Positions 13,144-55,820 of a stretch of DNA of 64,000 bases are shown here, piece after piece; position 1 is the stretch's first letter; every line of letters begins with the position of its first letter. The notes beneath the pieces were generated by a model. The model saw only the letters and a program-made list of their open reading frames with translations. It did not search any database and was not told the origin of the DNA. The stretch comes from Daphnia pulex (Eukaryota > Arthropoda > Branchiopoda > Diplostraca > Daphniidae), in assembly GCF_021134715.1 (NCBI RefSeq), contig NC_060026.1:15181001-15245000 (forward strand), in the 5' to 3' direction. Both the position numbers and the translations under genes were made by a program.

Positions 13144-15063
13144 ATGGCAGCGCGAAACATGTGGAAGTCTTATTTACTTTGGTGTGCAAATGAACATGTG
13201 TCATTCAGAATTCCTGTACGATATGAATTTTCAAGATTTTAAGTTTATTTCTAATTATAACTTGTTTTAATCCTCAGGAAGTTGAATCGGTTTTAGCTAT
13301 GTACAAAATTCCACATACGTGGATCGAGAAACCAGAAGAAAATGTAAATACAACTTTATATTCGTAAATTTTGTATCAACTAATTATATCACAGACTTTT
13401 TTTTATAGCCTTGGATGCTGATTTCTATGCCAAGTGAAGATTGTGCAGTGAAGCTTATGAAAAGATGTGTCACTGTCCGGTCCATCATCGAGCTATGGGC
13501 ACAATCAACAACAAAAGAGCATCTTGATGACCAGTTAAAAACCTTGCCTGCAGAGTTCACATCTTATTTTAAGAAGGAAAATAAATTCAAAGTTGTGGTG
13601 GATATATTTAATAAAGTAATAAGCCAAGAGGAAAAAATCGAAAAAATTGAGGTAAGATTTTGAAACAAATAAAATTATCTGACTGTATGAAAGTACATTA
13701 ACAGTCTATCAGTCTTTCAGTTACCTGCCAATTCTCGGATCTGCCAATTTGAAAAACCCTGACGTTACATATTATTATTACGAATTCTTTGGGCTGGACG
13801 CTGGACGTATTCCTGAGAATCCTTTTAATTACTTTTTTGGCCGATGGGTAAAGAAATCAACTACTATTTCTTCTGGTATTACTCAAATATCATCAATATT
13901 TTTTCTACTGTTTCCAGATTTCCGATAGTGAACGAACAGCAGTAGCCAAATACTCCCTCAAAACTCGGCACTTTATTGGCAACACAAGCATGGATCCTCA
14001 ACTGTCCATGATTATGGCAAACCTCGCGCAAATTGACAATGGCCATATAGTTGTTGACCCGTTTGTTGGAACAGGTTGCTTACTACTATTTAAAAAACAT
14101 GTAACATAGTAACTAAACGTCTTACATTTCAGGTTCTCTTCTGGTAGCAGCAGCTCATTTTGGTGGTTATGTTTGCGGAACGGATATAGATTACCTCACT
14201 ATTCACGGAAGAATGAAACCAACTAGAGCTCACCAAAAGAAACGCCAGCCAAATGAAGACATCAAGGGAAACCTAAAGACTTATAACCTTTTTTCACGCT
14301 ATTTGGATGTCTTCGTGGGTGACGCATCAACGCCCGTTTGGAGGTCGAATTTCCGTTTCGACTCCATCATAACTGATCGTAAGAAAATGTTTTAGTTTTC
14401 CCTGAAGATTTTCACTTATGATTCAAATCGGCGAAATTCTCTACAGCTCCTTATGGAATTCGTGAATCAACCTATAAAGTGGGTAGCAAGAAAATCGCCC
14501 CTATTCCGGATGAGATGCTGTCGACACATTTTCCTTCTAAAACTCAGTACGGTTTAGGCGACATCTATAAAGATCTTCTTAATTTTGCCGCCAATAGTCT
14601 CAAACTGCATGGCCGACTGGTTTTTTGGATTCCAATCATACGGTAAGGTTTTCTAGCTTGGGTTTTAATAATTTGTCATATTGATTCGCAATAACTTCTT
14701 TGATAGAATGGAGTATGATCCAGACCTCCTACCTGAACATCCTTGTTTGGAAACTATAGCCAACAGTGAGCAGATCCTAAATTTGCATTCCAGCCGTCGA
14801 TTAATAACTATGCAAAAGATTATGGAACCAAAGGTAAAATTCTGGCATAACTACACATGTAATTGAATACACATTAATTATACGTTTATGAACAGGAGGC
14901 TGAAGATTCAGCAATAATCCACAACCTACAGTACACATTTCGACACAAGTTCTTCAATACCAGCGAAATCAAAGGACATGGAAAGGAAGACGAAAGTGCG
15001 CGAAATCTAACGAAAAGAAGCAAACGGGGAAACGGAATAGCAAAATTGCCATGTGATAAGTAA
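13144..15063 (+). CDS. TRMT11: tRNA (guanine(10)-N2)-methyltransferase catalytic subunit
   Basis: Nine coding exons: 13144-13215, 13278-13343, 13409-13651, 13713-13847, 13918-14074, 14133-14378, 14447-14642, 14707-14833 and 14896-15063, giving 469 residues, close to the human length. The N-terminal half is the THUMP-like region typical of Trm11. The Rossmann methyltransferase part has the SAM motif DPFVGTG at residues 219-225 and the catalytic DPPYG at 306-310, split by the exon 6/7 junction. With TRMT112 the enzyme makes m2G10 in cytosolic tRNAs. The gene is intact, but from position 14237 onward it lies in the left arm of a giant palindrome, so exons 6 (part) to 9 are duplicated in inverted form at 24050-24876. 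Confidence 0.94.
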
Positions 15064-18000
15064 CCTAACAGTTTTTGAATATGCAATACAATACACAAGT
15101 GGGTAAGTGCATCGACCCGTCCTTTTTTAATTCAGTAAGTTATTATTATTTTCAAAGCGTCATCTTCTTGGGCAGTCTAACATCGCCGACTTTGATAGGC
15201 GAAATGAAATCACAGAAAATGTTTTCGGCTTGAAATTGTGGAGAACTAAGTTCTAAAAGGTTGGAAATGAAAACTGAAAAGATGTAACTAGAAAAGACAA
15301 GAGGCTACTGTTGAAACCTGTCATCAACGACTCTACCGGCATCGAAGACCAAATAAACTTTGTCACAATGGAGGCAGCACTCGCAGAAGAAAGAATTTTT
15401 CTGTATCTGTCGCTAACCGTACGATTATTCCGAGTTGCATGCATGTTCACTGTCTTGGCGTTCTGTATGAGTCGATCGAAAGTACACGTTATTTACACAC
15501 GTCCCATTTGTGAACGTATACGCGTATACGTTAATTACTTTGTTTCAGGAATGCCCCACCAGGTGTCACTGCAGTTTAATAACAACAATGGCTGCCATTC
15601 CCCACATTGAACATTGATTAGTGCCTGGTAGTGCTTAGTGGTCTGTCTTTCATGTTTCGATGCAGTATTATATCAGGTGAACATTTTTAAAATATTTGTT
15701 TGGCGTTCGTTGCCTTGTAGATTCTCTGAAAGTCGTGCTGGTATTTTAATATAGTGTGTCCAGTTAAAGCGTGGTTAAATCGTTGAAACAACTGAACCTG
15801 AAGAAAAGAAGAATGCAAGTCATCTTGCGTCTTTTAACATATTTGTAGATCAAGAACTTGAATTGAATGATATTTTCTCCTGCTGTATCAGTTGTAAAAA
15901 TATTGAAATAGCGAGTCATGCCGGTGCTGCCAGCATATTTGAAGTTCACTCAGTTCAAGTGAGTGCTAAGTGTTTACCAGAAGAAAAGTGACATGTAGTT
16001 TCCTACATATGGTTTTCTGCCTAGTCGAATAATACTCTGCATTTGTATTTCTTCTACATCTATTTCCACATGAGTGTTTGATTTTTTAACTGCGAAAAAT
16101 CTGTGTGAGAGGAGAATTGAATGATTGAGGCTGTGTAAAGTCTTCTTTCTTCTGTATTCTATTATAGCAGTTGTAAACAAAGTTAATAAGAGTGAGACAA
16201 ATGCAAAATATCTAACCTTGATGTTTTTCATCAAATTACAGGAGGAAACCTGAAAGTTGTGCAGCCTATCGTCGACTATTTTGTTCCAAATCATTGTATT
16301 CAGACTACTGATTGTGCCATCAAAATTATACTGGTATCAACCAACACTAGCTTTATTACAGTATTGCTGAAACATGTATTCTTGAATTCTTTGTCTCATC
16401 TTTTATTAGAATTCATCATAATTATCTGCTGTTTGTATTGGATTTTCTAGATCACCAACCCCAGCACGGACCAGTCTATCATTCCATCTTCTAGAGAACC
16501 TTGGGTAACTGATTGATGGTTTCATGTGTAAGTATACTTGTCATGTCACTGAACTTTCTTCGGTGCAGTCTAATATGTATTTTAAGTATTGATCTGACTT
16601 CTCTTGAGGTCTATCTAAAATTCAAGAGATGATTTTGAGTGTAAACTGATGTTTAATTACTGTTTAATTATTCTTTTAGATCATAGACGTCAAGCACATT
16701 GATGAAACAAATTATAAATAACGTGACTTATTTTTTTAATTTACAGGTTTCTAAATTGGCATTACAGACTTTATGTGAAGTCATGTCCTTTCAAGAAAAT
16801 GGACAAGGGCTTAGTCAACAAGATTCATTGTTTTCTAACTCGTCTCGTTCCGTTGAATCTCCCCTTTACTTCCTTACACAGGCCCTCTTGTTTGGAGGTA
16901 TTGCTTTCTGTTGCTACATCTTGTTTGAATATTACTGTCATCCAAATAAATGTTCATTCTGATTACAGGGTAATTCCTTCGTGAACTTCATCCATTGCTG
17001 AAAACCAACGAGATCATGCTGTAATTCAAGACCGATAATTTGTCTAGTTAGCTAAATTACAAGTGCATATCTGGGCTCCCTTCTTTTCTGTGGCCCCGTT
17101 TCCCTAACTAACCACTAACCAACGCCCGCCGGTGGTCACTCACCCGCTGTGAATCCAGGAGGAGGGGAGGGCTCTGGTCGAACGGGGACTTGGAAGGCGC
17201 ATGATCCGATGAAAACTTTTGGAGGGTCATGAGTCTAACCCGGAAGCCTAGTATGACTACATCTCCCCGGAAAAACTTGCCTCGTACTTCTCTCTTCTTC
17301 TCGGTCCAGATAAATATCTCTGGGGGCCGTAGACATATCCTATAACAGCATGTGCGAGTTAAAACAATGCATCCACTACCCAATGAAACAAATAGCCATG
17401 GTTTATTTTTTGTGGAAATCTCCGTCAGTCAAGTTACAAAGACGATGCAGATTTCCGCAAAACTAATCCATCGCTTTTTGTCTCATTGCCGCAGCGGTGG
17501 TGGCGGGTTGCGTTTAAACTCGTGCAGTAGTAAACCGTCTTGAACCGGACGCTCTGTTTATTGAATTTTTTGAACATTTTAAAAAGAAAATAAAATTTGT
17601 TCATAAAGTGTATTTATTTTATTTATTATATTACATGGTTAAATATTGGTTTATAGGGTTAAGGGTATAGATTTAATGGTTGGTAGGTGTATGTTTTCGC
17701 GGTTTGAAGGATTGGAAGGTATGTGTTTGTGGGGTTTGGAGATTAATGGGTAGGGATACATTTGTAGGGTTATAGATTCACTGCATTTTTATCCAAACTT
17801 GAAATATCCCCCCTCCAACATCCACCACTTTCCTTTCCCAACCCCAAAAACATGTTTATTATTTGTTTGACATGAACATCCCATATTTGTTTTTGTTGCT
17901 TCTGAACTTATAAATGGTAAACTGCAATAGTCACGATGACAATTTAACAAAATATGATGCAACTTCGGTAACACAACACCAGCACCAAGGAACGGCCAAT

Positions 18001-19542
18001 TGAACTTGATGTAGAAAGATTTCACCAGAATAGGCTTCAACAACGTGCCACATCAGACAGCAACAACGCGAACATAAAACACTAAACCTATAACCAGAAT
18101 GAAATGAATTAATATACATGAATAAATGTCACTTTACGTTATTTACAAGAGTTAAAGCCCTCGGCTGGCTGCATCAAGTCCATGTGTACGTTGGGCAGCA
18201 ACAAAGAAGCTCATACTTTTACCAGACTGATAATCCTATTTATTAAAAAAAACTCAATTACTATCAACTATCAAGGAAACAATGTCTTAAATTACAAAAA
18301 CAAAAATGACATAAGTTAAAGTAAACTATGCAAACACAATCCTTCAGATTAAAAGTTGCAAAAGAACCTACAGCTATCAAGCATTTACAAGGTAGACAAC
18401 TGAAAATTCTACAACAAATAAGTTAAGAGATAGTCACCGACTAACTAAGTCTGTAGTCTCACAGTTAGAAAGTTGAACATATTTACCTGAATAGTTCTGA
18501 AGTGTTTCTTACAAAACATACAGCCGGTACAGGAAAAAGAGGAATTTATCCTTGGCATGGTTGTCCAATTTCAAAGAGCTCAATTTCACCTACACGAGGG
18601 GAAAAAAGAGTTACTTATAACAGGAAATCAAATGCGGTTTTGTTTTCTTCTTTTCAGACCTGGAGTGTTACAATTCTGGCTCGGGCATCACTCAATGAGG
18701 GGAAAGAATTGAGGTAATCACTAGTTGTGATTGTGATGGGTAAACAATTTGAGGGGAAAGAATTGAGGTAATCACTAGTTGTGATTGTGATGGGTAAACA
18801 ATTTTCAATCTTTTCTTTGATATCCAACTCTTACAGCACTCTGTGCAGAACTCTACAAACAAATAATGGTTAAAGCTTTATTAAAATATCTTTTATACTG
18901 CCGGGTTCTCACTTTTCAATGCTTGGCAATGTCTCTCAAAAGCGGGTGGTGTCAAGTGAAGAAAGTTGGGGATCGTCATTAACTCTGCATTAGCAAATTT
19001 ACCAGGTGGTGTTGCACACGGAACAACCTAGCCCTGATGCAAGGGCAGCAGGACGCTAGCTGGATGGAAAGACCTGGCAACTGGCCAAACTAGAGGGCCA
19101 GTCTTCATCAAAAGCGCGTTATGTTGAAACGTGAACTGCTGCTCTCTTGTATACTTTACGTCCGTAAGATCTCATATTCAACGACTTGTTTGCACTCAGA
19201 TCCAGCGAACGGAATTCGTCTTCTCCTAATAAATTTTAACAGAAAGCCGGTTACAGCACATGCCATTCACGTGTAAATAATCTAATGATACTAAGCGCGA
19301 TTTAAAAAGATGAAAGTTACCATACACTTTTAGAATTTCTTCATTATTGCGAAATGATGTGGGATAATTAGCAATGGGAGTTGACACAAACTGCTGAAAT
19401 TACGGAAAACACGTAAGTTGACAATTGCAGACATTTTATTTGGCTCTTTTTAGGCAGACTAAGATACTGTTTCATCGCCATCTATGATTCACATTTACAA
19501 CTGCGGCGGATTAAAAGTACCCGACAACAATAGAACTCCAAT
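15064..19542. other. Arm interior without recognisable protein genes
   Basis: Beyond TRMT11 no frame longer than about 106 residues is open, and none looks like a known protein. The AT-rich stretch contains scattered splice-like sites, a GC-richer patch at 17100-17380 and a G/T-biased stretch at about 17636-17780. A long non-coding transcript is possible but not supported by anything decisive. Confidence 0.5.
18698..18805 (+). repeat. 54-bp tandem duplication in left arm
   Basis: A unit that begins GAGGGGAAAGAATTGAGGTA and runs to GGGTAAACAATT is present twice in direct tandem. The mirror position in the right arm (about 20345-20420) has it once. It is the main structural difference between the two arms. 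Confidence 0.9.
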
Positions 19543-19627
19543 AATTTTTAAAATTCGAGTTCTATTGCTGACATTAGAACTCCACTATGCGACAGTAGAA
19601 CTCCAATTTAAAATTCTACTGTCTGGC
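19543..19627. repeat. Palindrome spacer with nested short inverted repeats
   Basis: The 85-bp loop between the arms, together with the adjoining arm ends, carries several copies in both orientations of a short motif close to TAGAACTCCA (for example 19531-19540, 19575-19584, 19597-19606, and inverted at 19629-19640). The core can therefore form small stem-loops by itself. Confidence 0.75.
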
Positions 19628-22600
19628 ATTGGAGTTCTATTGTCGGGTACTTTTAATCCGCCGCAGTTGTAAATGTGAATCATAGATGGCGATGAAACAG
19701 TATCTTAGTCTGCCTAAAAAGAGCCAAATAAAATGTCTGCAATTGTCAACTTACGTGTTTTCCGTAATTTCAGCAGTTTGTGTCAACTCCCATTGCTAAT
19801 TATCCCACATCATTTCGCAATAATGAAGAAATTCTAAAAGTGTATGGTAACTTTCATCTTTTTAAATCGCGCTTAGTATCATTAGATTATTTACACGTGA
19901 ATGGCATGTGCTGTAACCGGCTTTCTGTTAAAATTTATTAGGAGAAGACGAATTCCGTTCGCTGGATCTGAGTGCAAACAAGTCGTTGAATATGAGATCT
20001 TACGGACGTAAAGTATACAAGAGAGCAGCAGTTCACGTTTCAACATAACGCGCTTTTGATGAAGACTGGCCCTCTAGTTTGGCCAGTTGCCAGGTCTTTC
20101 CATCCAGCTAGCGTCCTGCTGCCCTTGCATCAGGGCTAGGTTGTTCCGTGTGCAACACCACCTGGTAAATTTGCTAATGCAGAGTTAATGACGATCCCCA
20201 ACTTTCTTCACTTGACACCACCCGCTTTTGAGAGACATTGCCAAGCATTGAAAAGTGAGAACCCGGCAGTATAAAAGATATTTTAATAAAGCTTTAACCA
20301 TTATTTGTTTGTAGAGTTCTGCACAGAGTGCTGTAAGAGTTGGATATCAAAGAAAAGATTGAAAATTGTTTACCCATCACAATCACAACTAGTGATTACC
20401 TCAATTCTTTCCCCTCATTGAGTGATGCCCGAGCCAGAATTGTAACACTCCAGGTCTGAAAAGAAGAAAACAAAACCGCATTTGATTTCCTGTTATAAGT
20501 AACTCTTTTTTCCCCTCGTGTAGGTGAAATTGAGCTCTTTGAAATTGGACAACCATGCCAAGGATAAATTCCTCTTTTTCCTGTACCGGCTGTATGTTTT
20601 GTAAGAAACACTTCAGAACTATTCAGGTAAATATGTTCAACTTTCTAACTGTGAGACTACAGACTTAGTTAGTCGGTGACTATCTCTTAACTTATTTGTT
20701 GTAGAATTTTCAGTTGTCTACCTTGTAAATGCTTGATAGCTGTAGGTTCTTTTGCAACTTTTAATCTGAAGGATTGTGTTTGCATAGTTTACTTTAACTT
20801 ATGTCATTTTTGTTTTTGTAATTTAAGACATTGTTTCCTTGATAGTTGATAGTAATTGAGTTTTTTTTAATAAATAGGATTATCAGTCTGGTAAAAGTAT
20901 GAGCTTCTTTGTTGCTGCCCAACGTACACATGGACTTGATGCAGCCAGCCGAGGGCTTTAACTCTTGTAAATAACGTAAAGTGACATTTATTCATGTATA
21001 TTAATTCATTTCATTCTGGTTATAGGTTTAGTGTTTTATGTTCGCGTTGTTGCTGTCTGATGTGGCACGTTGTTGAAGCCTATTCTGGTGAAATCTTTCT
21101 ACATCAAGTTCAATTGGCCGTTCCTTGGTGCTGGTGTTGTGTTACCGAAGTTGCATCATATTTTGTTAAATTGTCATCGTGACTATTGCAGTTTACCATT
21201 TATAAGTTCAGAAGCAACAAAAACAAATATGGGATGTTCATGTCAAACAAATAATAAACATGTTTTTGGGGTTGGGAAAGGAAAGTGGTGGATGTTGGAG
21301 GGGGGATATTTCAAGTTTGGATAAAAATGCAGTGAATCTATAACCCTACAAATGTATCCCTACCCATTAATCTCCAAACCCCACAAACACATACCTTCCA
21401 ATCCTTCAAACCGCGAAAACATACACCTACCAACCATTAAATCTATACCCTTAACCCTATAAACCAATATTTAACCATGTAATATAATAAATAAAATAAA
21501 TACACTTTATGAACAAATTTTATTTTCTTTTTAAAATGTTCAAAAAATTCAATAAACAGAGCGTCCGGTTCAAGACGGTTTACTACTGCACGAGTTTAAA
21601 CGCAACCCGCCACCACCGCTGCGGCAATGAGACAAAAAGCGATGGATTAGTTTTGCGGAAATCTGCATCGTCTTTGTAACTTGACTGACGGAGATTTCCA
21701 CAAAAAATAAACCATGGCTATTTGTTTCATTGGGTAGTGGATGCATTGTTTTAACTCGCACATGCTGTTATAGGATATGTCTACGGCCCCCAGAGATATT
21801 TATCTGGACCGAGAAGAAGAGAGAAGTACGAGGCAAGTTTTTCCGGGGAGATGTAGTCATACTAGGCTTCCGGGTTAGACTCATGACCCTCCAAAAGTTT
21901 TCATCGGATCATGCGCCTTCCAAGTCCCCGTTCGACCAGAGCCCTCCCCTCCTCCTGGATTCACAGCGGGTGAGTGACCACCGGCGGGCGTTGGTTAGTG
22001 GTTAGTTAGGGAAACGGGGCCACAGAAAAGAAGGGAGCCCAGATATGCACTTGTAATTTAGCTAACTAGACAAATTATCGGTCTTGAATTACAGCATGAT
22101 CTCGTTGGTTTTCAGCAATGGATGAAGTTCACGAAGGAATTACCCTGTAATCAGAATGAACATTTATTTGGATGACAGTAATATTCAAACAAGATGTAGC
22201 AACAGAAAGCAATACCTCCAAACAAGAGGGCCTGTGTAAGGAAGTAAAGGGGAGATTCAACGGAACGAGACGAGTTAGAAAACAATGAATCTTGTTGACT
22301 AAGCCCTTGTCCATTTTCTTGAAAGGACATGACTTCACATAAAGTCTGTAATGCCAATTTAGAAACCTGTAAATTAAAAAAATAAGTCACGTTATTTATA
22401 ATTTGTTTCATCAATGTGCTTGACGTCTATGATCTAAAAGAATAATTAAACAGTAATTAAACATCAGTTTACACTCAAAATCATCTCTTGAATTTTAGAT
22501 AGACCTCAAGAGAAGTCAGATCAATACTTAAAATACATATTAGACTGCACCGAAGAAAGTTCAGTGACATGACAAGTATACTTACACATGAAACCATCAA

Positions 22601-24876
22601 TCAGTTACCCAAGGTTCTCTAGAAGATGGAATGATAGACTGGTCCGTGCTGGGGTTGGTGATCTAGAAAATCCAATACAAACAGCAGATAATTATGATGA
22701 ATTCTAATAAAAGATGAGACAAAGAATTCAAGAATACATGTTTCAGCAATACTGTAATAAAGCTAGTGTTGGTTGATACCAGTATAATTTTGATGGCACA
22801 ATCAGTAGTCTGAATACAATGATTTGGAACAAAATAGTCGACGATAGGCTGCACAACTTTCAGGTTTCCTCCTGTAATTTGATGAAAAACATCAAGGTTA
22901 GATATTTTGCATTTGTCTCACTCTTATTAACTTTGTTTACAACTGCTATAATAGAATACAGAAGAAAGAAGACTTTACACAGCCTCAATCATTCAATTCT
23001 CCTCTCACACAGATTTTTCGCAGTTAAAAAATCAAACACTCATGTGGAAATAGATGTAGAAGAAATACAAATGCAGAGTATTATTCGACTAGGCAGAAAA
23101 CCATATGTAGGAAACTACATGTCACTTTTCTTCTGGTAAACACTTAGCACTCACTTGAACTGAGTGAACTTCAAATATGCTGGCAGCACCGGCATGACTC
23201 GCTATTTCAATATTTTTACAACTGATACAGCAGGAGAAAATATCATTCAATTCAAGTTCTTGATCTACAAATATGTTAAAAGACGCAAGATGACTTGCAT
23301 TCTTCTTTTCTTCAGGTTCAGTTGTTTCAACGATTTAACCACGCTTTAACTGGACACACTATATTAAAATACCAGCACGACTTTCAGAGAATCTACAAGG
23401 CAACGAACGCCAAACAAATATTTTAAAAATGTTCACCTGATATAATACTGCATCGAAACATGAAAGACAGACCACTAAGCACTACCAGGCACTAATCAAT
23501 GTTCAATGTGGGGAATGGCAGCCATTGTTGTTATTAAACTGCAGTGACACCTGGTGGGGCATTCCTGAAACAAAGTAATTAACGTATACGCGTATACGTT
23601 CACAAATGGGACGTGTGTAAATAACGTGTACTTTCGATCGACTCATACAGAACGCCAAGACAGTGAACATGCATGCAACTCGGAATAATCGTACGGTTAG
23701 CGACAGATACAGAAAAATTCTTTCTTCTGCGAGTGCTGCCTCCATTGTGACAAAGTTTATTTGGTCTTCGATGCCGGTAGAGTCGTTGATGACAGGTTTC
23801 AACAGTAGCCTCTTGTCTTTTCTAGTTACATCTTTTCAGTTTTCATTTCCAACCTTTTAGAACTTAGTTCTCCACAATTTCAAGCCGAAAACATTTTCTG
23901 TGATTTCATTTCGCCTATCAAAGTCGGCGATGTTAGACTGCCCAAGAAGATGACGCTTTGAAAATAATAATAACTTACTGAATTAAAAAAGGACGGGTCG
24001 ATGCACTTACCCACTTGTGTATTGTATTGCATATTCAAAAACTGTTAGGTTACTTATCACATGGCAATTTTGCTATTCCGTTTCCCCGTTTGCTTCTTTT
24101 CGTTAGATTTCGCGCACTTTCGTCTTCCTTTCCATGTCCTTTGATTTCGCTGGTATTGAAGAACTTGTGTCGAAATGTGTACTGTAGGTTGTGGATTATT
24201 GCTGAATCTTCAGCCTCCTGTTCATAAACGTATAATTAATGTGTATTCAATTACATGTGTAGTTATGCCAGAATTTTACCTTTGGTTCCATAATCTTTTG
24301 CATAGTTATTAATCGACGGCTGGAATGCAAATTTAGGATCTGCTCACTGTTGGCTATAGTTTCCAAACAAGGATGTTCAGGTAGGAGGTCTGGATCATAC
24401 TCCATTCTATCAAAGAAGTTATTGCGAATCAATATGACAAATTATTAAAACCCAAGCTAGAAAACCTTACCGTATGATTGGAATCCAAAAAACCAGTCGG
24501 CCATGCAGTTTGAGACTATTGGCGGCAAAATTAAGAAGATCTTTATAGATGTCGCCTAAACCGTACTGAGTTTTAGAAGGAAAATGTGTCGACAGCATCT
24601 CATCCGGAATAGGGGCGATTTTCTTGCTACCCACTTTATAGGTTGATTCACGAATTCCATAAGGAGCTGTAGAGAATTTCGCCGATTTGAATCATAAGTG
24701 AAAATCTTCAGGGAAAACTAAAACATTTTCTTACGATCAGTTATGATGGAGTCGAAACGGAAATTCGACCTCCAAACGGGCGTTGATGCGTCACCCACGA
24801 AGACATCCAAATAGCGTGAAAAAAGGTTATAAGTCTTTAGGTTTCCCTTGATGTCTTCATTTGGCTGGCGTTTCTT
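19628..24876 (-). repeat. Right arm of the 10.6-kb palindrome
   Basis: This 5249-bp arm is the inverted copy of 14237-19542. It ends abruptly at 24876/24877 inside the copied TRMT11 exon 6, and the sequence beyond is unrelated to TRMT11. This is most likely the derived copy. Apart from the truncated TRMT11 exons it holds the same gene-poor sequence as the left arm. Confidence 0.9.
24050..24876 (-). pseudogene. Truncated inverted copy of TRMT11 exons 6-9
   Basis: Partial exon 6 (24876-24735), exon 7 (24666-24471), exon 8 (24406-24280) and exon 9 (24217-24050) are the same as in the intact gene, with splice sites and the DPPYG motif kept. The THUMP-like half and the SAM-binding motif are missing, so an m2G methyltransferase cannot be made from it. 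Sequence beyond the junction supplies an in-frame ATG at 24918-24916, so a short chimeric frame exists. I treat it as a fresh gene fragment. Confidence 0.85.
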
Positions 24877-24918
24877 ACATAAATCAAAATAACAAAGAAA
24901 AGCTATAGGCAATTTCAT

Positions 24919-25944
24919 CTACAGTACCATCTATTATGTTATCTATAGACACATTCCCATTAACACGAACTTTGCAGAAAGCAAATAAATTGTAAAGTGG
25001 AAGAAAGTGATAAAAATGCTACAGCTACGTCCTCCCCCCACACCACAAAAATTATAAGATATATTTGGATTAAAAGACCAAACAAAAATTACATTCGTCA
25101 GGATTCAGGTTTGAGATGAGGATTTTTAGAAAGATCAATTTAGAATATAAAAAAAAAATGCTTGCATGGCCATCTCTAAATTGGATATGCCTAGAGGGAA
25201 TTGGGATAGCCACGCCTAGAATAAACGGTATAGACTGTCCATAGCCACGTATAAAACAAATAATACTAGGCCATGATTATGTAGACTGACATTCAAAATT
25301 ATAATCGAAAACTTATCTCCTTTCGGCAGGGATTATTATATTAACACAAAGACGGAAAAACAGTATCACAATCTGTCAAGTGCAACCTTTAAGTTGAACG
25401 CAAGAACGGGTCCAACTGTATAAATTGAAACGCACGTCCAGTTGGAATTGGTTCATTATAACAAATTGCGAACAACTAAATAATGGCATATTCTTTATTC
25501 TCACTCACCGAAATTGTTTTGCTATTGGTTTTCATCTGTTGAACTAAAAACTGACGAAAAATGGGCAGTTTTTATCAGGTGAGTCATGAAAAGCGGCGTC
25601 ATGACAACCAATCAATCAGTGATGAGCCATCACGCATCGAAGATAAAGCAGAATAATCGTCGTCCAAAGAAAAACTATTTTCTCTCAAAAGAACCTATAG
25701 ATTCAACTAAACTTAACGGAATAATTGGATTATAATAGTGACGTAACTATTTGAGTCATCATAAAATAAACATGTTGCTCAAACATAAAAACCAAATTTC
25801 GAATCAAAAGTGTCGGTAGTTATCTTTTATTGACTCGTTGCAAGATAGGCGATTGATAACACCGCACTTAAGGTATTTCAGCTAGAAAGTTTCATTTTGT
25901 CGATTGTTACGTGTCGCTTTTGTTACAAAGAAAATCGAGAAAAA
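24919..25944. other. Intergenic region between palindrome and C1q gene
   Basis: AT-rich, with no recognisable coding exon. Its last few hundred bases must include the promoter of the C1q gene, but I see no convincing TATA element. Confidence 0.5.
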
Positions 25945-27091
25945 ATGGCTCGTGTGACAGTCTTTTTTGGTCTGATGTTAATTTTGAGTTGCGAGACAAT
26001 TTGTTCCTCTGCTCTTACCACATTTTTCTTGGAAGACAAACTGCAAGAATTGGAAGTGAGACTAGAAGCCAAAATTGAAGCTAAAAATGCTCAACTTGAA
26101 ACAAAGGTGACGCAACTGGAGGCGCAACTCAAACTAAATGTAAGTCTACGGTTTAGTTTAATTCAGAGTTTCACTGTGGGTAAAAACACTTTTGCTTTTC
26201 TATGACAGAATAAACTAAGACAAGATTTGGCATTGAAAGTAATTCAATTAGAGGCCAAAAATGTCCAACTAGAAGTCAAAATTGGAAAACTGGAGACCAA
26301 AGTTGAACAACAAGATTCGCTTTTAACTTCCCTTTTACGAGAGAAAAATGAACGCAGAGCAGCAGCATCGACCGACTCTGTTCGTCCAATTGGCAATAAT
26401 CAATCGCCAGTTGCCATCAACGGACTGCCGTCTTCATGCGGGGATCTGGCGCTGATTGGCCATACCCTTAGCGGAATTTATTCTGTCATGGGATCGGCGA
26501 AAATGGAATCCGTTTTCTGCGATTTCACTAAACTTCCTGACGATGCGGGTAAATCACATTTCACGTTATTTAGTTGCAATTTTCAATGTTTTAATTCTAA
26601 ATTGATGAAAAGGTTTTCAGAAATGGATCGGATACGCCGACGTCAAATCGGCGCCCGTCCATTTCTACGTCCAGAGAAATTCTTCATTTTCCGACGAATT
26701 CACTCCGATTCCGTTCCAGTTGGCGGTAGTGAACGAAGGAAACGCCATGAATTTGACATCGGGGAAATTCACGGCACCGCGGCCGGGAATTTATTTTTTC
26801 TCTTTCGCGGGAGTGGCGCGTCTTTCTTCTTCATCTGCTGTAGATTTTTATTCTGAACTTTATTTGAACGGGAATCGAATCGGGTCGAGTCATGTTTACG
26901 AGAATAACCCCCCCGTTCTTCAATATAGTCCGTTGTCCCTCCAGTCGACGCTGAACTTGAAAAAAGACGATCAACTCTGGGTGACGATTACTTATTCTGC
27001 TGGTTCAGACTCGTCTTTGTATGACAGCGGCATCCACCGGACCCATTTCACGGGTTTCATGTTGGAGGAGGAAATTGTGGCGGCCCTTTGA
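25945..27091 (+). CDS. Secreted coiled-coil protein with C1q domain
   Basis: Three exons, 25945-26139, 26209-26548 and 26613-27091, encode 337 residues. A signal peptide covers about residues 1-24. Heptad-rich coiled coil rich in L-E-x-K repeats follows to about residue 112. A short cysteine-flanked segment at 142-169 (SCGDL, SGIYSV, VFCDF) resembles the start of a fibrinogen-like domain. The C-terminal 150 residues are a C1q/TNF jelly roll, with GKFTAPRPGIYFFSF as the typical core. C1q-domain proteins trimerise and act as secreted recognition molecules, often in innate immunity; the ligand here is unknown. The last acceptor (26611-26612) has a weak pyrimidine tract but is the one that keeps the C1q frame. 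Confidence 0.85.
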
Positions 27092-28085
27092 GGTTCATGA
27101 AACATTTTCGACCCAAACATTTTTGTTTAATGTCGACACGCAATTTTGGGGAGGGGAGAGAAGGGGGAGAGAGAGGGAATTTAAAGGGGGAGAGAGAGAG
27201 AAGAAAATTATTTTGATTTCAACTCGTTAAGGGGTGGGCATTTCTTTACAGAAATCGAACTGTATATGCAACTAGACTTAAGGAATACACACACAAATTT
27301 TCAAGTTTCTATCTGTAAAACTCTAGACCTTACAAACAAAAAACCAATTTTGATTGCGTGATTTACACAATGCAAGTGGACAACAAATTGGAGAAAATTC
27401 ATTCGCTTCTAATTCGTTAATGGTTTGGAATTTTTTCAAAATCTTTTCATAGTTATATTCTTATTATAGTTGTGCAAATTCACGCATCTATGGGGAAAAT
27501 AAAGGACAAATGAAAAACCAATTTGAATTTGATTGCCCATCGCAGCTTAACATCAAATAAAATTAACGCTGAATCGCTTCTATTTCCCGCATCTTAATAC
27601 AAAAGCATTCTATAGCTCTGACAAAAGTTTTTTTTATATATATATATATAAATTAAAAGGCTTAAATTTTTTTTAATGTGAATTTTACTGTAAATGCCTG
27701 CAAGGAAAGGACGGACACGCCGACGCGTTATAAAAAACGAAGACGAAAACTGTCAATTTCGAAAGACCAAGATGTTGGGAGACCAACATTTGAATTGAAC
27801 CATGTCGTGTTTAGTTGATTTAACGACGATTCTTACTTTGATGACGTTCGTTTGCTGATCTTTAATGTCAGGTGATGAATGCCAAGTGCCAGGATCGGCC
27901 ATTCACGATCGTTTGATACTCAATAGTGATGATTTTATACGTTACGTTGATGTCAATGTCAACGTCAACTGCTGAATGGTTGTTAATATGCTACGAAAAA
28001 GAATTCAAAACAAAAATTGTTATTGTAACCTCCTATCGACATTTACTGTCAGTGCTGAGTTGTGAGGTAAAAAACGGGCCTAATC
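27092..28085. other. 3' flank of the C1q gene
   Basis: Purine-rich GAGAGA tracts lie directly after the stop, and a TA microsatellite is at about 27637-27651. No gene is visible. Confidence 0.5.
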
Positions 28086-29036
28086 TATACAGTCGTTCAC
28101 TCGTTCCTACATATGAGATATTTATCAATGAGCCCTAACTGAGAAAAACAAAAACGGCGATGAGAAACAGTTCCATTCAACCGCAGCCTAGCTCAGGAAT
28201 AATCGTTCTCCGAAAATACGTAGCGATTGATAGATCAACGCCACCAAATAGACAAAAGGGAAGAATGGAGATAGATGTTTTTCCTACCTTTATGCCTGGG
28301 AAATTCGGCCAGGCATCCACAAGTGCTCCATCCATCCGCTGATAAGTTGAATTACATCAGGCGGAATAGGAGAAAGGGGTTCCTCGTGAATACACCCACA
28401 CTCACATGGGCGTACACGAGGACAGACTAGATTTGACGAAAGGGAAAGAAGAGATCCGTAAGTTCTACCGACATCGGTAGTTTCTCCAATCTAACTGGAT
28501 GCTGTTTATCTAATTGAAAAATTAAAAATGGGTTACGAAAAATATTTAGACAGATAAAAACAAGTAAGGACAAGCAGAAAATGAGGCAGTGGGTAAACCT
28601 GAATTTTTTAATAAATGGGAGAATGTAACGTGTGTCCATGTTAATACACTGCACTCACGCAGGTCCTGCAACATAAAAATCTCTAACAGGTGGCAGGAAT
28701 AAAAGTATTAACCAAAAGGCATTATCCTAGTGACGATACTGAGGACAGGGTAAATGCCAACAAAAATAAAACTTAAATATCTTGTGATTACGATGGCTGG
28801 CCTCAAATCTGCACAAAGGAAAAGTTTACGCACTGCAAACAAACTGCCAAGCATCGACAGGTGGCTTACATGATAAATGCCAGTCAGGAAATATGACATT
28901 TCACAAGTTTGAACAGGTTTAACTTTTCTGTTCAAGCTCTCGAAATCATTGCATTTGTATTCTCTACTTTAATTTACCTGCCAAACAGCATGGAGGGGAT
29001 ATCAGGCAGAGCCTTGAGCCTGGACACCAACACTGA
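28086..29036 (-). repeat. Tandem duplicated unit, copy 1 (probably non-coding)
   Basis: About 950 bp that recur directly downstream at 29037-29980 with moderate divergence. On the minus strand splice-like sites are shared by both copies: a donor after TGTTTGGCAG, a donor in TTTATCATGTAAGC and an acceptor ending in TGCAG. No frame is conserved. A 40-nt hairpin at 28382-28421 and a second at 28293-28315 are kept in both copies, which suggests a structured spliced RNA. Confidence 0.6.
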
Positions 29037-29980
29037 TCAGCAGTCGTTATTCCTACAAATGAAATATTTATAAATGAGGCCTAACTGAGGAAAACCAAAA
29101 CGGCGATGAGAAACAGTTTGAGTCAACCGCAGCCTAGCTTAGGAATAATCGTACTCCGTACTATAAGTAGCGATCGATAATCATCGCCACCAAATACTCA
29201 AAAAAGAACAATAGAGATAAATTTTTTTCCTACCTTTATGCCTGGGAAATATGGCCTGGCATCCACAGGTGCTTCATCCATCAAAGTTGAATCCACCAGG
29301 CGGGTTGGGAAAAAGAGCCTCAGACTCGTGATAATACACCCACACTCACATGGGCGTACACGAGGACAGAGGGAATTTAACGAAAGGTGAAGAAGAGATC
29401 CGTACCTCGACTGAAATCGTTAATAGTTTCTCCAATCAAAAGGGATGCTGTGTATCTAAATAAAAAATAAAAAATGAGTTACGACAAATATTTACAGATA
29501 CAACAAGAAAAAGTTGGAAAATGAGACAGTTGGTAAACACTAACTGTTTATAAACAGCAGAATTTAAGGTTCCATGTGCTACATTTGTACAATTCATGCA
29601 TCACTTAAATATCTAGCTCACAGACTTAATAAAATAACGAAAATCATTATACCCAGGTGATGATACTAAGATTGTTGCTGACGGCAGGTCAATATCATGA
29701 CAAGCAAATCTTGAATATTGTGTTGTTACGATGGTTGGTTCAGGCATAAAATCTGCATAAAGAAAAGGTTACATAGTGCAAACAAACTGGGATACTGACA
29801 TGCTTCAACAGGGGGCTTACATGATAAATCCTAGTCAGGAATCAAAACTTCACAAAATTTGGAATAGGTTAACTCTTCTATTTGAGCTTACATAATCATT
29901 CCATTTGTATTCTTAGTTTATAACCTGCCAAACAGCATGGAGGGAAGAGCAGGGAGAACCTCGACACTAGTCGACACCAC
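29037..29980 (-). repeat. Tandem duplicated unit, copy 2 (probably non-coding)
   Basis: Second copy of the unit, offset by about 945-950 bp. The equivalent hairpin lies at 29325-29364. The second hairpin at about 29239-29261 is mostly kept with one mismatch. Small indels differ from copy 1 throughout, so the duplication is much older than the palindrome. Confidence 0.6.
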
Positions 29981-32370
29981 GAAGCACACAAGACGACCAC
30001 ATTTCTGTAGAATTATTATTTAGTTGTGCTTATTTTGGCTTATTTTTCGTGCAACCACGTACGTTTAAAAAACAATCCATTTTTCGTTTTTGTAATCTAA
30101 TTTGAAACTTCGTCCCTTTTTCTTTCGAAACTTGTATAGTTGTAGCCTAAACAAATCAAAATCAGACGACACTAATCTACTAATTAGTCATGCACTCATG
30201 CTGAAAATTGATGGCAAATTACGTAACTAATTATTTAATCAGCACAGTAGCATCAGTCACTAATCTATTGTTTATGTAAGCACAAGAATTCAAGAAAGAA
30301 GTTGGGTTAAAAGTTAAAACTTAAAAGGATTTCTGCCGGCTTTTAAGTTATAGTAATACTGTAATATAGACTAGGCTAACGTCCGAAGATAAATGACTTC
30401 ATATTCACATGTGGTGGCGCTGGTTCAGGAAACAATGCTGTATGCTGATATTAAAAGCGCCACTCTTTTTTTTAACATTTCAGGCCCACATTTTGTGACA
30501 TTTAGGCCCGGGCCTGAATGACTGGGCCTGAAACCTTGAATGTCATCCACCCCTATTTAAAAGCGAATAAAAATTTTGTAAACGAACCGGTAATTTTTTT
30601 GCATGGCGATTCGTGGAGATTTGACGGGACGATAGATTATTAGAATGTTGATTTTCTTCTATTGATATGTAACTAACACAGTCATCGTTAGCAATTTATG
30701 TCCATCGCTTTCTCATTAACTCAAACACTGACGCAATTTGTGTTTTACTTCCATGTAGGAATTTGTTCTTCTTTAATATTTTACCTCGTTTACATTTTAA
30801 TTTAATTATTTAAAAAATCCACCACTCTGAACACGCTGATTTCCTTCCAGCACCTCACAAGGAAGTACCGGAAACGGTCATCAATGGCCGAGAGTAGATA
30901 CCACCGAGGTGGTTACACTCACGACCTGCTTCGCGCTCAGAAGCCAGCGTCATTACTCGTCATCGTGGGTGGAAAGGAGACAAGTTTCTGGTGGGAAACA
31001 AGTCAAGATATACTACAGAAATGATCCTGTGAAGTATGATCTTAATTTTCCATTGGTTTCAGCCTAGTATTTGTACCTTTTCAAAAAACCAACTGTCAGT
31101 GGCGTTTCTACCAGTACTCAAATGCGGATAACACACCATCGTTAGGACAATAAATAATTTTGTTCGTTTCATAAGTTAGTATTGCTATTAGGCAGTAGTG
31201 TTCATTTGATGCAATTCACGAAAATTGCTTTAAACTCTGTCGGGAAAATAAAATAAACTAAAACTTTTTTTTTAGTAAAAAAAACAGATGTGAGGAAAAG
31301 GCTGAAAGCGATATTCCTGGCACGTCACAAATCGGCAAGACGATAGGGTATTAACGGATCCCGCCAGGTGGCGACGTACTCTCCCAAACAAACATTCCAA
31401 AATTTGTGTTCACAGTTGGTATAATATACAAGAAAAAAAATTACAAGATAACATCATAAAATCCGACACGTAAGATTCAATTGCGCAAAAGTTTGCATAT
31501 ATAATGATTTGTCTCATTACTCTGTCGTCATTGTTCATTACCCAACACGACCCGCCATAGAAAGTTAACCTCGAAATTCCAACTATTCAAATGGGTAGCT
31601 CGCGATAGAATGTCCTCACGTTTCCCAAAGCAACAAGGACATCATTTCAACTGCGTGTGTTTAGTAGTTTCCCATTAAAAAAAAAAAAATCAATCAATAC
31701 ATTGCGCAGCTTAACCTTCCTCGGTTTTTTCCAATGAATATTTTAACTTGTTGCCTGTTTATGAGAAAACATAGACGGAGCTCACAGTTCATATGCAATA
31801 ATATTTTTTTTTTTTAGTTTAGAAAGTGGTTTTTTTAATGTATTTCAACGAGAAACGTGACACCCCATTCAGAGGGGAGCCTAATGTCCTCGTATGCATA
31901 ATGAGAAATAAGTGATTTGTTGCATTTAAATTGCATTCGTATACAAATAGCCTAATAGAATCCATTTGGACGGTTGCCGAAGCGTGCAGCAGCTCAATCG
32001 CTCGACCAAAACGACCAGCGGACATTTTATTTCCATAAAATTCTTTTTTTTTTTCAAAATAATTTCTATCAAGGAAAGAGAAAGTTAAAATTTTCAAATT
32101 TCCTTTGCAAAAACAGCTCCTGTCTATAGGAAGTCCAAAAAAAGAGTTGAAAAATTCTGTTGGCGATTTCTCAGTAAGGTAATCGACCATATTTGGGTCC
32201 TGTATACAACAGTTAGCGAGCTCTCTGTTTGAAAATTGTCGGTCGGTTACCCCTTCCTTTGTCGACCGCAAGTAGAAAACTCGTTCCCTATATGCAAATT
32301 CGATTGAGAGTGCACCGTGTCCACAGCGTCAGCTGACAAATGTCTGAAATATGATCAATCCCGTGCCGAC
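29981..32370. other. Gene-poor AT-rich interval
   Basis: No reading frame of interest. A short GC-rich patch around 30480-30545 contains repeated GGCCTGAA-like words and GGCCCGGGCC, looking like a dispersed repeat fragment that I cannot classify. Confidence 0.4.
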
Positions 32371-50922: not shown

Positions 50923-52193
50923 ATGAACCAGATCGTTCAACAATGTCTCGACTCCCACAACGAGTACCGTCGGAAACACGGTGCTCCGCCACTGGTAATC
51001 AACGAATCGGTAAGAAAATTAGCAAGTAAATTTATAAATCAGGTATCAATAATTTCGTTATACTTTACAGTTGATGAGAATGGCGCAAAACTGGGCCCAA
51101 ACCAATGCCAATCACTGTAAAATGTACCACAGCAGTAACAATCAAGCCGGCGAAAACCTCTACGCCACATCAGGGGGTTTATGCAATGGACACGATCCGG
51201 TTGATTCTTGGTACGACGAAATAAAAGATTACAGTTTCGGCGGGGGCCTAGGATCTATTTTCGGATTCGGCAGACCAACTGGTTAGAATTTATGTTAATT
51301 AAAATGGTTAAATTAAATAGATTGCTGATTGTTATTTTGTTACAAAATAAAGGACATTTTACTCAAGTGGTGTGGAAAGGGAGCAGAGAGCTGGGCGTCG
51401 GATGGGCAACTGGAAGTAACGGCTGGACCTATTTCTGTTGCAATTATTCGCCAGCGGGAAACTATCAGGGCCAGTATCAAGTCAATGTACTTCCGCTAGG
51501 TACTCCTCCTCCAGCCTCGGTATCTATCACAAAACCCAGCATTTTATTCCATCTAAAATTTGTTTTAACCCAATATACTTGACGTAGTGTCAGCCAGCAC
51601 CAAACCAGCCGTCGAATTCTTGTAGTTCTGCAGCTCCGGCCCTCCCGATGGAGGATTTGGACGTTAATTCTTTCGAGACCAGGCCATTAGTTCGTTCAAG
51701 CTTCAATGGGGTTAGTAACTAAAATAATTATGTCATTAGATAGCTAAAATTCTTACTTTAAATATAGGCGAAGCCTTCTGAAATCGTCGAAGCCATTTTC
51801 AACGGCCGTCTAGGCAACTGCATGGGCGACCGGATGAGACGCGGATATCATTTGAGCACCAATCAATACCTGATGTCGCAGAATCGCCAATTTGCGGCCA
51901 TCTTGCAGGAAGATGGAAATTTCGTCATCTACAAAAGTGACAAGGGTGGCCAGGCTGAATTTGCGACGGGCACTGGTGAAGGTGCCAATCAAGTCCAATT
52001 GCGCAACGATGGCCACATCACGGTCATAGACAAGTCCAAGCCGGAAAGTCCTTTGTGGAAGAGTCGCAGGAATGCGGAAGGAGGTGATTGCTTCCTCATC
52101 ATGCAGGACGATGGAAATCTGGTGGGCTACAAGGGGACGAACGATACGAGTCCTTCCAATGCTTATTTTTCCGCTCAGAATCTGAACCTGTAA
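50923..52193 (+). CDS. CAP domain fused to bulb-type mannose-binding lectin domain
   Basis: Five exons, 50923-51009, 51071-51281, 51353-51519, 51588-51710 and 51768-52193, give 337 residues. Residues 1-155 are a CAP domain closely related to the neighbouring gene, with putative cleft residues His49, Glu57, Glu79 and His101. A Pro/Ser-rich linker with two cysteines spans about 166-195. The last exon encodes a B-lectin (GNA-like) domain with two full QxDxNxVxY mannose-site motifs, at 243-251 and 309-317, and a degenerate one near 273-283. The start lacks a signal peptide. Exons 1-3 share phases with the acidic-tail gene, so the two differ by their 3' exons. It may recognise mannose-rich surfaces; whether it is secreted is not clear from sequence. 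Confidence 0.87.
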
Positions 52194-52843
52194 CCAGAAT
52201 AACGACATTAGTAAATATAGTTCCTAGAGTGACAAGAGTGTTAAGCAATAGGCACCTACTGGGTTGTATAAGACTTGAAAGCGAATAAACCTTAATTGAA
52301 TGTATACTCTTATTTCCTCTGTGTAGTTTTGGATTTAGGAGTTAACAAGCTAGGACAGAAAAATAAGCCAGCCTGATGATAAAAATAAGCTTTTAAACAT
52401 GCTACGCTTAGAGTAAAACTTATCAATTTCAAAACAGGAAATACTTTTTTTAAGACACTATCAGGTGCTGATAAATCAGTGTAGGGAGGTGTGTGTAAGA
52501 TGTGGCAATTGGCTGTAATATAAGGTGTTTTGAATTTCACTATTTGACGTGTTAAATGATAACGACGTGTCTCCTGTCAGTAAAATGGACGTAAATGCGT
52601 TACCTAAAATATTAGAACGTGAAATCTGTACGAATTCAAGAAGCAGATGAATCTCAAATAATTATGAAACTCACCTTTTTGTAGTTATTTCTCGACTTTG
52701 ATATCCAAACACTGCACAAACCTACAAAAAATAAAAGCTAAAATGAATAGAAAATTCAAACTTCTGTATTAAAAAAAACGAAGACGATACAAAACAAATG
52801 TGGAGTAGTATTAAATAAAAGAATTACGGCACTTATCCGGCGA
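52194..52843. repeat. 3' flank of CAP-lectin gene (recurring segment)
   Basis: Holds the CAP-lectin 3' UTR and the terminator side of the first MATH-BTB gene. Related copies lie at 47181-47650 and 55143-55690, so this flank travelled with segmental duplications in both directions. Confidence 0.75.
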
Positions 52844-54554
52844 TTAAAGCTGCAGAAGATAGTCGGTCAGTTCTTCGGCATCCGGTGGGTTGGCGTTAAG
52901 TAGTTGACACACATTTTTCAATGTCTCTACGTCGTACATTGCGGCCAATTTACCAAGTTGATGGCCACCGTCAGTCGTTTTTAACGATCCGGTGTAAAGG
53001 AAATTTAGAAAATTCTTGACAATCTCGACATCGAATTCTGCTTCGATTATGACAATAGACTTTTCAGTGTATCTGATTTTGCTAAAAGATGCATTCAGGA
53101 CAGGACTCCGGGCGCATAGAATAACTCGGTGGGCTTCCATCACTTTAACAGTTCCGACAATAATTTCGACATCCGTCAACTTTTGGTTTGTTGCTGCCAT
53201 CCAAAAATCTGTCGGCCAAGCGTCGTCCATCATCTCGTAGTTATAGTTGCTGATCGTACACATTGTTTTGATGTCGAGGTTGAAGTCAATGAATTTTGAG
53301 GTGAGAGAAATTGAATTATACCACATGTTGAAGCGTAAAAGTACTTTTGCGTTTTCTTTTGATTTCTTCGCTTCCAACTTAACCATAAGTCGGTTATTCT
53401 TCAGTTGGCAATAAATATCTTCAACTTTCAAGCCGAATTTTCGATGCTTGGCGCATGTAAAATGAATCCCAGGTTTACTGATACAGCTTTCACCGAAATT
53501 CCCAGTGACGTAAGCGAAAAACAATTCTTCTTTTTTATATTCCATTATACACTTAGGTATTCCGGATTCAGTAAACCGCAAAGCGCATCTAAAAGTGGGC
53601 GTAGTTCGATCAAAAATTATTTCTGTATCTATATCCGGCCTATGAAGTATGAAAACAATGAAAAAACAGATTAAAATACACGAAACCAAATAAATAAAAG
53701 AAATATTACATGATTTTGGAAGAAGAATTTGGTGCTTCAACTCCGTTATTTAAAATGTCCATGACTTTTACCATCTGCATGGCCTCAATTTTCTTCAGTG
53801 CAACTTGGCATAAACCAGACAGAGCCAGCAGCCCGTACTTGTTGGCTAACTTGAGCAATTCTTCATCTGCCAACGTTCCCATTGGCTCTCCCGTGTAAAC
53901 AAAGTGAAGAAACTTCTTCACAGTTGAAGGTTCCACTCCATCAATCCGGATCTGATGAGGAACGTCTTTTACCGGTTGTACCTTCTCAAATTCGTCTGCA
54001 AACACTCGACTGCGAGCAGCAAGAATGGCTTTGTGAACGGGAAATGTCTTGTTTTTCACGACAAATTCAACGTCCGCTAAATGTCTTTGAATTTTCAGAG
54101 CAGCCCATAATTGATCCTTGGCAAGACGATCAGACAGTCGATAGGAATAGCCATAGGTTGAATAGCAGGAAATAACTCCTTCGATGATTATTCGAAAAGA
54201 AAACGTGCAATTTCCAACAATCTTCTTGTCAAGTGGAGTTTTAAATAGCTGCAAACTTCCTCCATCGCCGATGTTCTCCTTTGTCATTGGCTTGATGATT
54301 ACAGGTCCTGTGCTACTACCTTGAATTTGGTACGTTACTTCTTCCACTTTCATCCCGATTTTGCCGAGATCAATTGCCATGAAAAACAAAATGGGTGATT
54401 TGGCGTGATTCTTCAACCCCACACGGAATACTCGTTCACCTCGAAACAGAATCATTTTCGATGCAATTGTTATTGCCGTTTGTTCCTCGACATTTTCCAG
54501 GATCCACTCGTACGGCACAATCACTTTCGGGGTACTAATCGAATCCAATGTCAT
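52844..54554 (-). CDS. Double MATH-BTB protein, gene 1
   Basis: Two coding exons, 54554-53710 and 53639-52844, join through a phase-2 intron into 546 residues. Module 1 (about 1-281) has a MATH-like part opening with PYEWILENV and a BTB domain (LADVEFVV, HKAILAARS, FLHFVYTGE). Module 2 (about 282-546) starts TEIIFDRTTPTFRC, again MATH-like, followed by a second, diverged BTB domain (LTDVEIIVG, HRVILCARS, FLNFLYTGS) and ends DYLLQL. SPOP-type MATH-BTB proteins recruit substrates to Cullin-3 ubiquitin ligases; that role is inferred here. The start codon is a conserved Met-Thr preceded in every paralogue by an acceptor, so a 5' UTR exon is likely. Confidence 0.85.
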
Positions 54555-54998
54555 GGTGACGTACTTCACAAAACTGGTGAAAATATAGAAAACAACTTTG
54601 TCAATTCTTATTGAAAAAAATAAAATTAATAGATCGACTCACCATAAAATAAGAATTAACAAGAATCTCAAAAACAGAAATGTTACACGTTGAAAAAAAA
54701 CTAGACTCTACCAGCCAGTGGTCAACAGGAAACTAACAGTAAATTCTTCTGCAACCCATACCCAATTTACCCAGTATAGTGAGAGAAGGGGTTAAGAATT
54801 TTAAAAGGGGGGGTTAGGGTGACGAAGGCAACACGTTGTTGGGGTGGGGGTGAGACCTTGGCATGTCCAGACAGATTTCTAACCCCTTCCTTTTCTTCTA
54901 AAACAAAATAGAAATTAAAACAAAAGGAACAAAATCATAAAACAAAATAGCAAAAATACAAAATATTCAAATATTTAACGGGAGAATCGAGATAAAAT
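54555..54998. other. 5' side of MATH-BTB gene 1
   Basis: Contains the likely 5' UTR exon, ending in a GTGAGT donor at about 54643-54648, and farther upstream the conserved block described separately. Confidence 0.55.
54781..54900 (-). promoter_or_regulatory. Conserved upstream block, gene 1
   Basis: About 120 bp with GGTTAAG, GGTTAGGGTGACGAA, GCAACACGTTGTTGGGGT, GTGAGACCTTGGCATGTCCA and CAGATTTCTAACCC. Near-identical blocks lie upstream of genes 2, 3 and 4 at nearly the same distance (about 220-370 bp) from the start codon, which suggests a shared promoter. Confidence 0.65.
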
Positions 54999-55141
54999 CT
55001 CGATTGCGATTTTGCTGCCACGTGAAGGAGTTCTGCATTTTTCTTAAAATATTTCCGATTCCATTTTCACCCATTCATTTTCTTTATCCAGGTCGCAAAA
55101 AATATCTTCAACTTTCAACCCGAAGTTGCGATTCTTAGCGC
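54999..55141 (-). pseudogene. Fragment of a MATH-BTB second-module exon
   Basis: An isolated 140-bp piece similar to 60765-60910 of gene 4, covering part of the second MATH region. It is joined abruptly at about 55142 to a copy of the CAP-lectin 3' flank. This is a duplication scar. Confidence 0.75.
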
Positions 55142-55142
55142 A

Positions 55143-55690
55143 ACCAGAATAACGACATTAATAAATAGTTCATACAGTGATAAGTAATAAGCACCTGCTG
55201 GATTGTGTAAGACTAAAAAGCAAATAAACCTTTATTAAATTTATAAATTCATATTTCCTTTTAACAAGAGTTCTGGAATTAGCTTGGGAATTAGGGATTT
55301 ACAATCTAGGGCAGAAATAAGCCAGTCTGATCAAAAGATAAAAACTTTTAGCCATTCTACGCTTGGAGTAAAACTTATCAATTTCAATAAAAGAAATACT
55401 TTTTTTAAACGCTATCAGGTGACTGATAAATCTGTATAGGGGGGTGTGTAAGAAGTGACAATTGGCCTTAATGTAAGGTGTTTTGAACTTCACTATTTGA
55501 CGTGTTACTTAAACATGAAAACAAGAGTAAAATGATAACATGTCACCTGCCAAAGTAGACGTAATTTGGTTACCTAAAATACTAGAGCATAAAATTGTAA
55601 CTGTTCAGGAAAATGGCAGTTCGATCTCAAAACAATTCTTAACCTAACCTTTAATGGTTATTTCGCAACCTTGATATCCAAATCCTGCAT
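55143..55690. repeat. Third copy of the CAP-lectin 3' flank
   Basis: Matches 52190-52680 and 47181-47650. Here it follows a MATH-gene fragment and is followed by MATH-BTB gene 2, as the original is followed by gene 1. A single unit of flank plus gene was therefore duplicated. Confidence 0.8.
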
Positions 55691-55820
55691 AAACCTACAA
55701 TGAAAAGGCTAAAATGAAAAGAATAAAATTCAAATTCCTGTGTTAAAAATAAACCAACGTAGATACAAAACTATGCAGAGTATATAATAAGAATTTTAAA
55801 CGGTAAATATAATCCGGTTA

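Follow-up and report, generated by a model that had tools for sequence, protein, structure and literature searches.

A palindrome of 10.6 kb with nearly identical arms, whose outer ends carry part of a gene, lies on contig C10 of the Daphnia pulex genome. The locus raises the question of whether such a structure belongs to the chromosome and, if so, how its arms came to be the same. We analyzed a 64-kb stretch of DNA (C10:15181001-15245000), here called the window, in comparison with the genome of 133,188,837 bases in 13 contigs, presumably the assembly KAP4, which carries the accession GCF_021134715.1 in PMC11754708 and PMC12102780. Positions given without a contig are counted from the first letter of the window.

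Architecture of the palindrome

Self-BLAST of the window gives a single inverted match, 14237-24876, and the longest inverted match obtained by chance in 20 mononucleotide shuffles of the window is 48 bp. In an end-to-end alignment, the arms have no substitution in 5249 paired bases and differ in two indels only, one of 54 bp (18696-18749), where the left arm contains two tandem units and the right arm one, and one of 3 bp (19524-19526). The alignment bears out the near-perfect palindrome described in the initial annotation, including the lengths of its arms and spacer (Table 1). Arm identity above 99% over kilobases and a short spacer, by which palindromes of arm-to-arm gene conversion are recognized, are both found in the window. 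All 64,000 of its 64,000 bases are A, C, G or T.

Table 1 Features of the palindrome and its surroundings, in window positions
Feature	Position	Strand	Basis or remark
TRMT11-like gene, 5' end not delimited	13411..15063	+	exons by hand; stop codon about 15061
Exon holding the left arm border	14133-14378	+	splice sites read by hand
TRMT11 3' part within left arm	14237..15330	+	
Left palindrome arm, 5306 bp	14237..19542	+	self-BLAST, alignment
Repeat unit, left copy	15333..19542	+	
469-bp region with ~300-bp core, left copy	16982..17450	+	
54-bp unit, two tandem copies	18696..18804	+	single in right arm and other loci compared
Spacer, 85 bp, short inverted copies of TAGAACTCCA-type motif	19543..19627	.	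single units end in this motif too
Right palindrome arm, 5249 bp, inverted left-arm copy	19628..24876	-	self-BLAST, alignment
Repeat unit, right copy	19628..23780	-	
469-bp region with ~300-bp core, right copy	21663..22131	-	
Inverted TRMT11 3' part in right arm, fragment	23783..24876	-	without 5' exons
Right flank	24877..30800	+	

The left border of the palindrome (14237) falls within an exon of a TRMT11-like gene, as had been noted before. The exons on the left continue upstream of the arm, and the right copy consists of the inverted 3' part only. The spliced product, assembled by hand with its first exon not delimited, matches PF01170 in Pfam (E 1e-11, 45.4 bits against a cut-off of 22.3). 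The marks of TRMT11 membership, an RMKL/UPF0020 methyltransferase domain and a DPPY motif, are both present, and the motif DPPYGIRES spans the intron at 14379-14446. A search of the PDB with the spliced product returned one weak match, to a tRNA methyltransferase (0.00092). A single exon or the 3' exons alone, used as queries, gave no match or matches under the cut-offs, and one exon alone had no match in Pfam. The name TRMT11 is one that we presume for this gene by comparison with the human protein. The palindrome had been described as capturing the 3' half of TRMT11, which is correct for the outer 1.1 kb of each arm; the remaining ~4.2 kb per arm consists of a non-coding repeat with dispersed copies. 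The gene is present as a passenger flank, and the palindrome is more than a TRMT11 accident.

The part of the right flank from 25216 has relatives situated ~4-14 kb past a repeat unit at four C10 loci compared. Many members of the family that includes the stretch 25216-30067 lie on C10 (best 40 of 879 candidates scored). The TAGAACTCCA motif of the spacer (19480-19690) and its inverse occur at dozens of short sites on most contigs, often in both orientations (best 40 of 105 candidates scored). Further along the window are a U3 snoRNA gene on the minus strand (30821-31043, 140.8 bits in Rfam) and, also on the minus strand, an array of related genes (52192-63998), the members of which have ~70-78% DNA identity; the one protein tested from the array contains a BTB domain.

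A dispersed repeat and its conserved core

The repeat part 16213-19542 matches at least C2, C3, C6, C8, C9 and C10, the longer matches having 80-94% identity (best 30 of 595 candidates scored), and the part 15333-16212 is common only to C10 loci within the set compared. About 300 bp of the 469-bp region form a core (17080-17400 and 21700-22030 in the window) with 95-100% column identity in 32 copies from the fetched loci. Outside the core, arms of different loci differ by a median of 9% and more. A core 22-mer has 93 exact matches in the genome contigs and its reversed control none. A 49-mer with three mismatches allowed has 124 matches, at least 93 of them exact among the matches listed, and a core variant with up to two mismatches has 126 in the genome. 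Pooled, the core amounts to at least 126 copies at 95 or more loci among the matches listed, a list that omits C8 copies near 11.09, 12.08 (left) and 12.17 Mb and may omit others; that this number equals the count for the variant is coincidental. Core variants tend to favor particular contigs; the ACTTATC form occurs on C8 and at two places on C6 among the matches listed.

Pairs of neighboring core copies less than 15 kb apart are convergent in 29 of 31 cases, direct in two and divergent in none among the matches listed. Because several pairs share a spacing near 4.0 kb and an identical asymmetric center, the convergent pairs are not independent events and probably have one ancestral pair as their source. 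Four of seven apparently single C10 units examined have a decayed inverted partner of the core region, with 71-81% identity. Another arrangement is seen at C2:6147304-6152079 (L018), where a lone core copy is flanked by other inverted arms, two of 1173 bp with 99.9% identity. Core copies are located within ~75 kb of an end on several contigs, and inspection by eye revealed no bias in their orientation near contig ends.

A 106-residue frame was considered as a possible coding function of the core and rejected. Mismatches per codon position are 45/108/44, and inner stops, mostly downstream of frameshifts, interrupt the frame in 9 of 32 copies. Judged from its sequence, the core is taken as non-coding. 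Rfam found the U3 snoRNA only over the window, with no family at the core, and a lax search over 14237-19700 gave one match, whose 25 bits fall short of the gathering score of 50. Viral contigs contain no exact match to the core pattern. The palindrome has 71 ORFs of at least 50 amino acids; nine chosen ORFs of the repeat and outer arms have no Pfam match.

Core loci are rather evenly spaced, in steps of ~100-150 kb, in some chromosome regions. We treat this as a lead only, because copies are missing from the list and those within 15 kb of each other were counted as one locus. The test used core loci among the matches listed, in six stretches picked after the list had been seen. There are at least 22 loci in C6 0-2.3 Mb (mean step 106 kb, CV 0.55, P 0.003), at least 15 in C6 0.79-2.3 Mb (mean 103 kb, CV 0.27, 0 of 20,000 simulations), at least 14 in C10 14.2-16.4 Mb (mean 155 kb, CV 0.35, P 5e-5), at least 10 in its part C10 15.0-16.4 Mb (P 0.001), and at least 10 in C3 0.2-1.3 Mb (P 0.013). 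The spacing of the 10 or more loci in C9 7.9-9.6 Mb is not even (P 0.22). It is conceivable, though rather unlikely, that the repeat is a functional chromosome element, for example a boundary, replication or pairing site, and that the palindromes are its by-product. In this reading, the near-invariant ~300-bp core of its ~100 copies, the steps of 100-150 kb in certain chromosome regions, and the tail-to-tail pairs kept by conversion would all belong to that element.

Homogenization of arms and extension beyond the repeat

The divergence of arms was compared over a shared part of 1.5 kb in 11 palindromes. Within loci it is 0.00 (window), 0.06, 0.07, 0.09, 0.14, 0.39, 0.60, 3.47, 3.84, 6.64 and 6.73%, that is, 0-0.6% in seven palindromes and 3.5-6.7% in four. 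Between loci, the median is 9.1% and the minimum 1.17% (550 pairs). The arms of the window are 0% apart, as against 1.2% to the closest other locus. A 34-row tree joins the two arms of a locus as sisters in 9 of the 11 palindromes, the window included. It does not do so for C10:15055724, where the branch has weak support, or for the C8 locus near 12.08 Mb.

Twelve palindromes were scanned in 300-bp steps and assigned to classes by eye. Towards the center, arm divergence rises from 0-3% to 11-25% in five of them. The change to the diverged center is direct in C10:15055724 and C3:11751001, and it occurs across a mostly gapped step in C3:205001, C3:280001 and C10:15892501. Divergence is gradual or uneven in two (C6:1223001 and C8:12079750). 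No inner step is present in the remaining five, which are the window, C8:11392501, C3:1038001, C8:11082101 and C2:6147304; in the last three, the compared stretch stops where homology stops, and therefore no step could show. No conversion border is visible in the window because its arms do not differ. A palindrome homogenized on the outside and diverged on the inside is what arm-to-arm copying leaves.

Some palindromes extend well beyond the repeat. C8:11394055-11410088 is a 16-kb palindrome with 9 substitutions in 7991 aligned bases, and the arms of the palindrome from C3:1038256 onward are at least 7.6 kb long, with 19 substitutions in 7621. Outer-arm matches of the two with more than 90% identity are all on their own contig (34 of 34 candidates scored in one search, best 40 of 119 in the other). 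C8 also contains non-palindromic stretches that combine the outer and inner sequence, at 91-97% (L050) and 82-95% (L051) identity.

The closest relative of the window palindrome is a convergent pair 130 kb upstream, C10:15055724-15063637, to the left arm of which the window arms are nearest (1.2%). Its arms are 95.7% alike; their outer stretches are homogenized, and the inner ones differ by 11-20%. Only one arm has a TRMT11 3' part beside it, inverted and with 97.3% identity, and ~170 bp that are absent from the window separate this part from the repeat. Because TRMT11 is beside one arm only, the pair with TRMT11 on one side appears to be older than the symmetric palindrome, and the upstream locus may represent an earlier state of the palindrome in the window. 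This paralogous locus hints that the inverted structure predates the identity of the arms. Recombination between the arms is able to invert the center, so we leave the donor arm unassigned.

Origin of the palindrome and its known counterparts

We consider it probable that the window contains a real chromosome palindrome, formed by a tail-to-tail pair of a non-coding repeat, the arms of which were made identical by arm-to-arm copying. The inverted pair would have existed first, tail to tail, and one arm would then have been copied onto the other by gene conversion or by break-induced copying across the pair. In the window, copying may have run inward to the hairpin-forming tail and ~1.1 kb outward past the repeat, which would have added the last TRMT11 exons to the far side; the join 24876/24877 would be the place where copying stopped. 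Conversion or break-induced copying is likely to account jointly for the pairing, the homogenization, the growth beyond the repeat, and the upstream relative.

A very recent inverted duplication was one of the two possibilities raised in the initial annotation. The absence of substitutions in 5249 bases is in keeping with a recent origin or a recent homogenization; the inner part of each arm is a dispersed repeat that forms tail-to-tail pairs at many places. From zero change at 2 x 5249 sites and mutation rates, including that of D. pulex, quoted in PMC12926508, our own arithmetic allows, as the upper limit at 95%, some 63,000 to 124,000 generations since the formation or last full homogenization. 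Rates for D. obtusa, per site per generation, are 2.45e-9 substitutions and 3.34e-10 indels (PMC12926508). Because the substitution rate exceeds the indel rate there, the ratio of two indels to no substitution between the arms is odd. Short-read polishing might have erased substitutions from the arms.

It is less probable, and to us doubtful, that the palindrome arose perfect and in one event, by de novo fold-back of a single TRMT11-adjoining unit at its hairpin tail. A broken or stalled strand could have primed on itself, been extended through the unit into the TRMT11 exon, and then been joined to the downstream flank, a sequence of steps that we regard as equally doubtful. This origin agrees with the position of the axis at a hairpin-forming tail that also ends the units at L004, L007, L008 and L010, with the non-palindromic units that carry the outer sequence of the C8 palindrome (L050 and L051), and with arms that are symmetric up to the spacer in the window and nearly so in the C8 palindrome. 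Taken alone, the window and the C8 palindrome are explained equally well by fold-back. It is the related loci that speak against it: the convergent pair 130 kb away with TRMT11 on one side indicates that a pair probably preceded the symmetry, homogenization at related loci is partial, and four of the seven apparently single C10 units examined retain a decayed inverted partner.

An artefact, in which a fold-back (hairpin) read or a mis-join placed an inverted copy beside the true locus, is unlikely, even though the arms lack substitutions and fold-back reads are documented in long-read data (PMC12870357). The initial annotation had allowed for a hairpin read, which is opposed by several observations. 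Both indels between the arms are derived changes of the left one, which is what a real palindrome would accumulate with age. A single 54-bp unit is the better fit for the right arm and for 19 of 19 copies compared at 16 other loci, and two units fit only in the left arm of the window (C10:15055724 has a further deletion at the site). Neither the right arm nor any of five other tails compared has the 3-bp insertion. The spacer is genuine repeat tail and matches the hairpin-forming tail of other units. The sequence contains no N and goes on into a flank unlike the one on the left, and a read artefact could not produce the relatives whose arms have diverged. A foldback-type DNA transposon that has very long terminal inverted repeats and captured TRMT11 DNA would also be consistent with the length of the inverted arms and the dispersal of the copies. 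Galileo, of the P-superfamily, likewise has long inverted arms and can grow by recruiting other sequence, and in one copy from Drosophila willistoni the inverted ends measure 4246 and 4680 bp (PMC4168063). Galileo also has target duplications of 7-8 bp and conserved ends (PMC4168063), neither of which was found here in the loci tested. No exact duplication lies directly outside the arm ends, as placed by alignment, in four of four palindromes tested; the outer ends vary among the C3, C8 and C10 loci where a transposon would have constant termini; and the nine chosen ORFs of the repeat and outer arms have no Pfam match. We regard a transposon as highly improbable.

Palindromes kept identical by arm-to-arm copying are best known on sex chromosomes, where they are tied to the absence of crossing over. 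Like the one in the window, those of the mammalian X and Y have arms more than 99% identical; there, arm-to-arm conversion keeps them so, and part of a spacer in one species can be an arm in another (PMC8981503). Mammalian arms have a median length of 37 kb (PMC8981503), whereas the stretches compared here are ~1-8 kb, and the pairs are spread over several contigs. In Caenorhabditis, near-perfect inverted gene pairs are maintained, with gene conversion proposed as a cause, and the arms of one genome resemble each other much more closely than they do those of other species, a likeness to the present case (PMC1803023). The Caenorhabditis pairs are homologous genes in divergent and convergent arrangement (PMC1803023), whereas a dispersed non-coding repeat is the seed here, close pairs lie tail to tail, none being head to head among the matches listed, and the arms extend into unrelated flanks. 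Among known palindromes, those of sex chromosomes and of Caenorhabditis come closest. When palindromes were surveyed in 23 parthenogenetic genomes, D. pulex was omitted for lack of annotation (PMC7953838), and no account of this palindrome family in Daphnia is among the titles listed in our literature search.

The D. pulex assembly contains, within a single genome and on several chromosomes, many small palindromes with one seed repeat and at varied stages of homogenization. The start of a palindrome, its inward spread, and its outward growth into neighboring genes can be compared locus by locus. Gene fragments at such sites, like that of TRMT11 here, can stem from palindrome growth and be misread as assembly errors.
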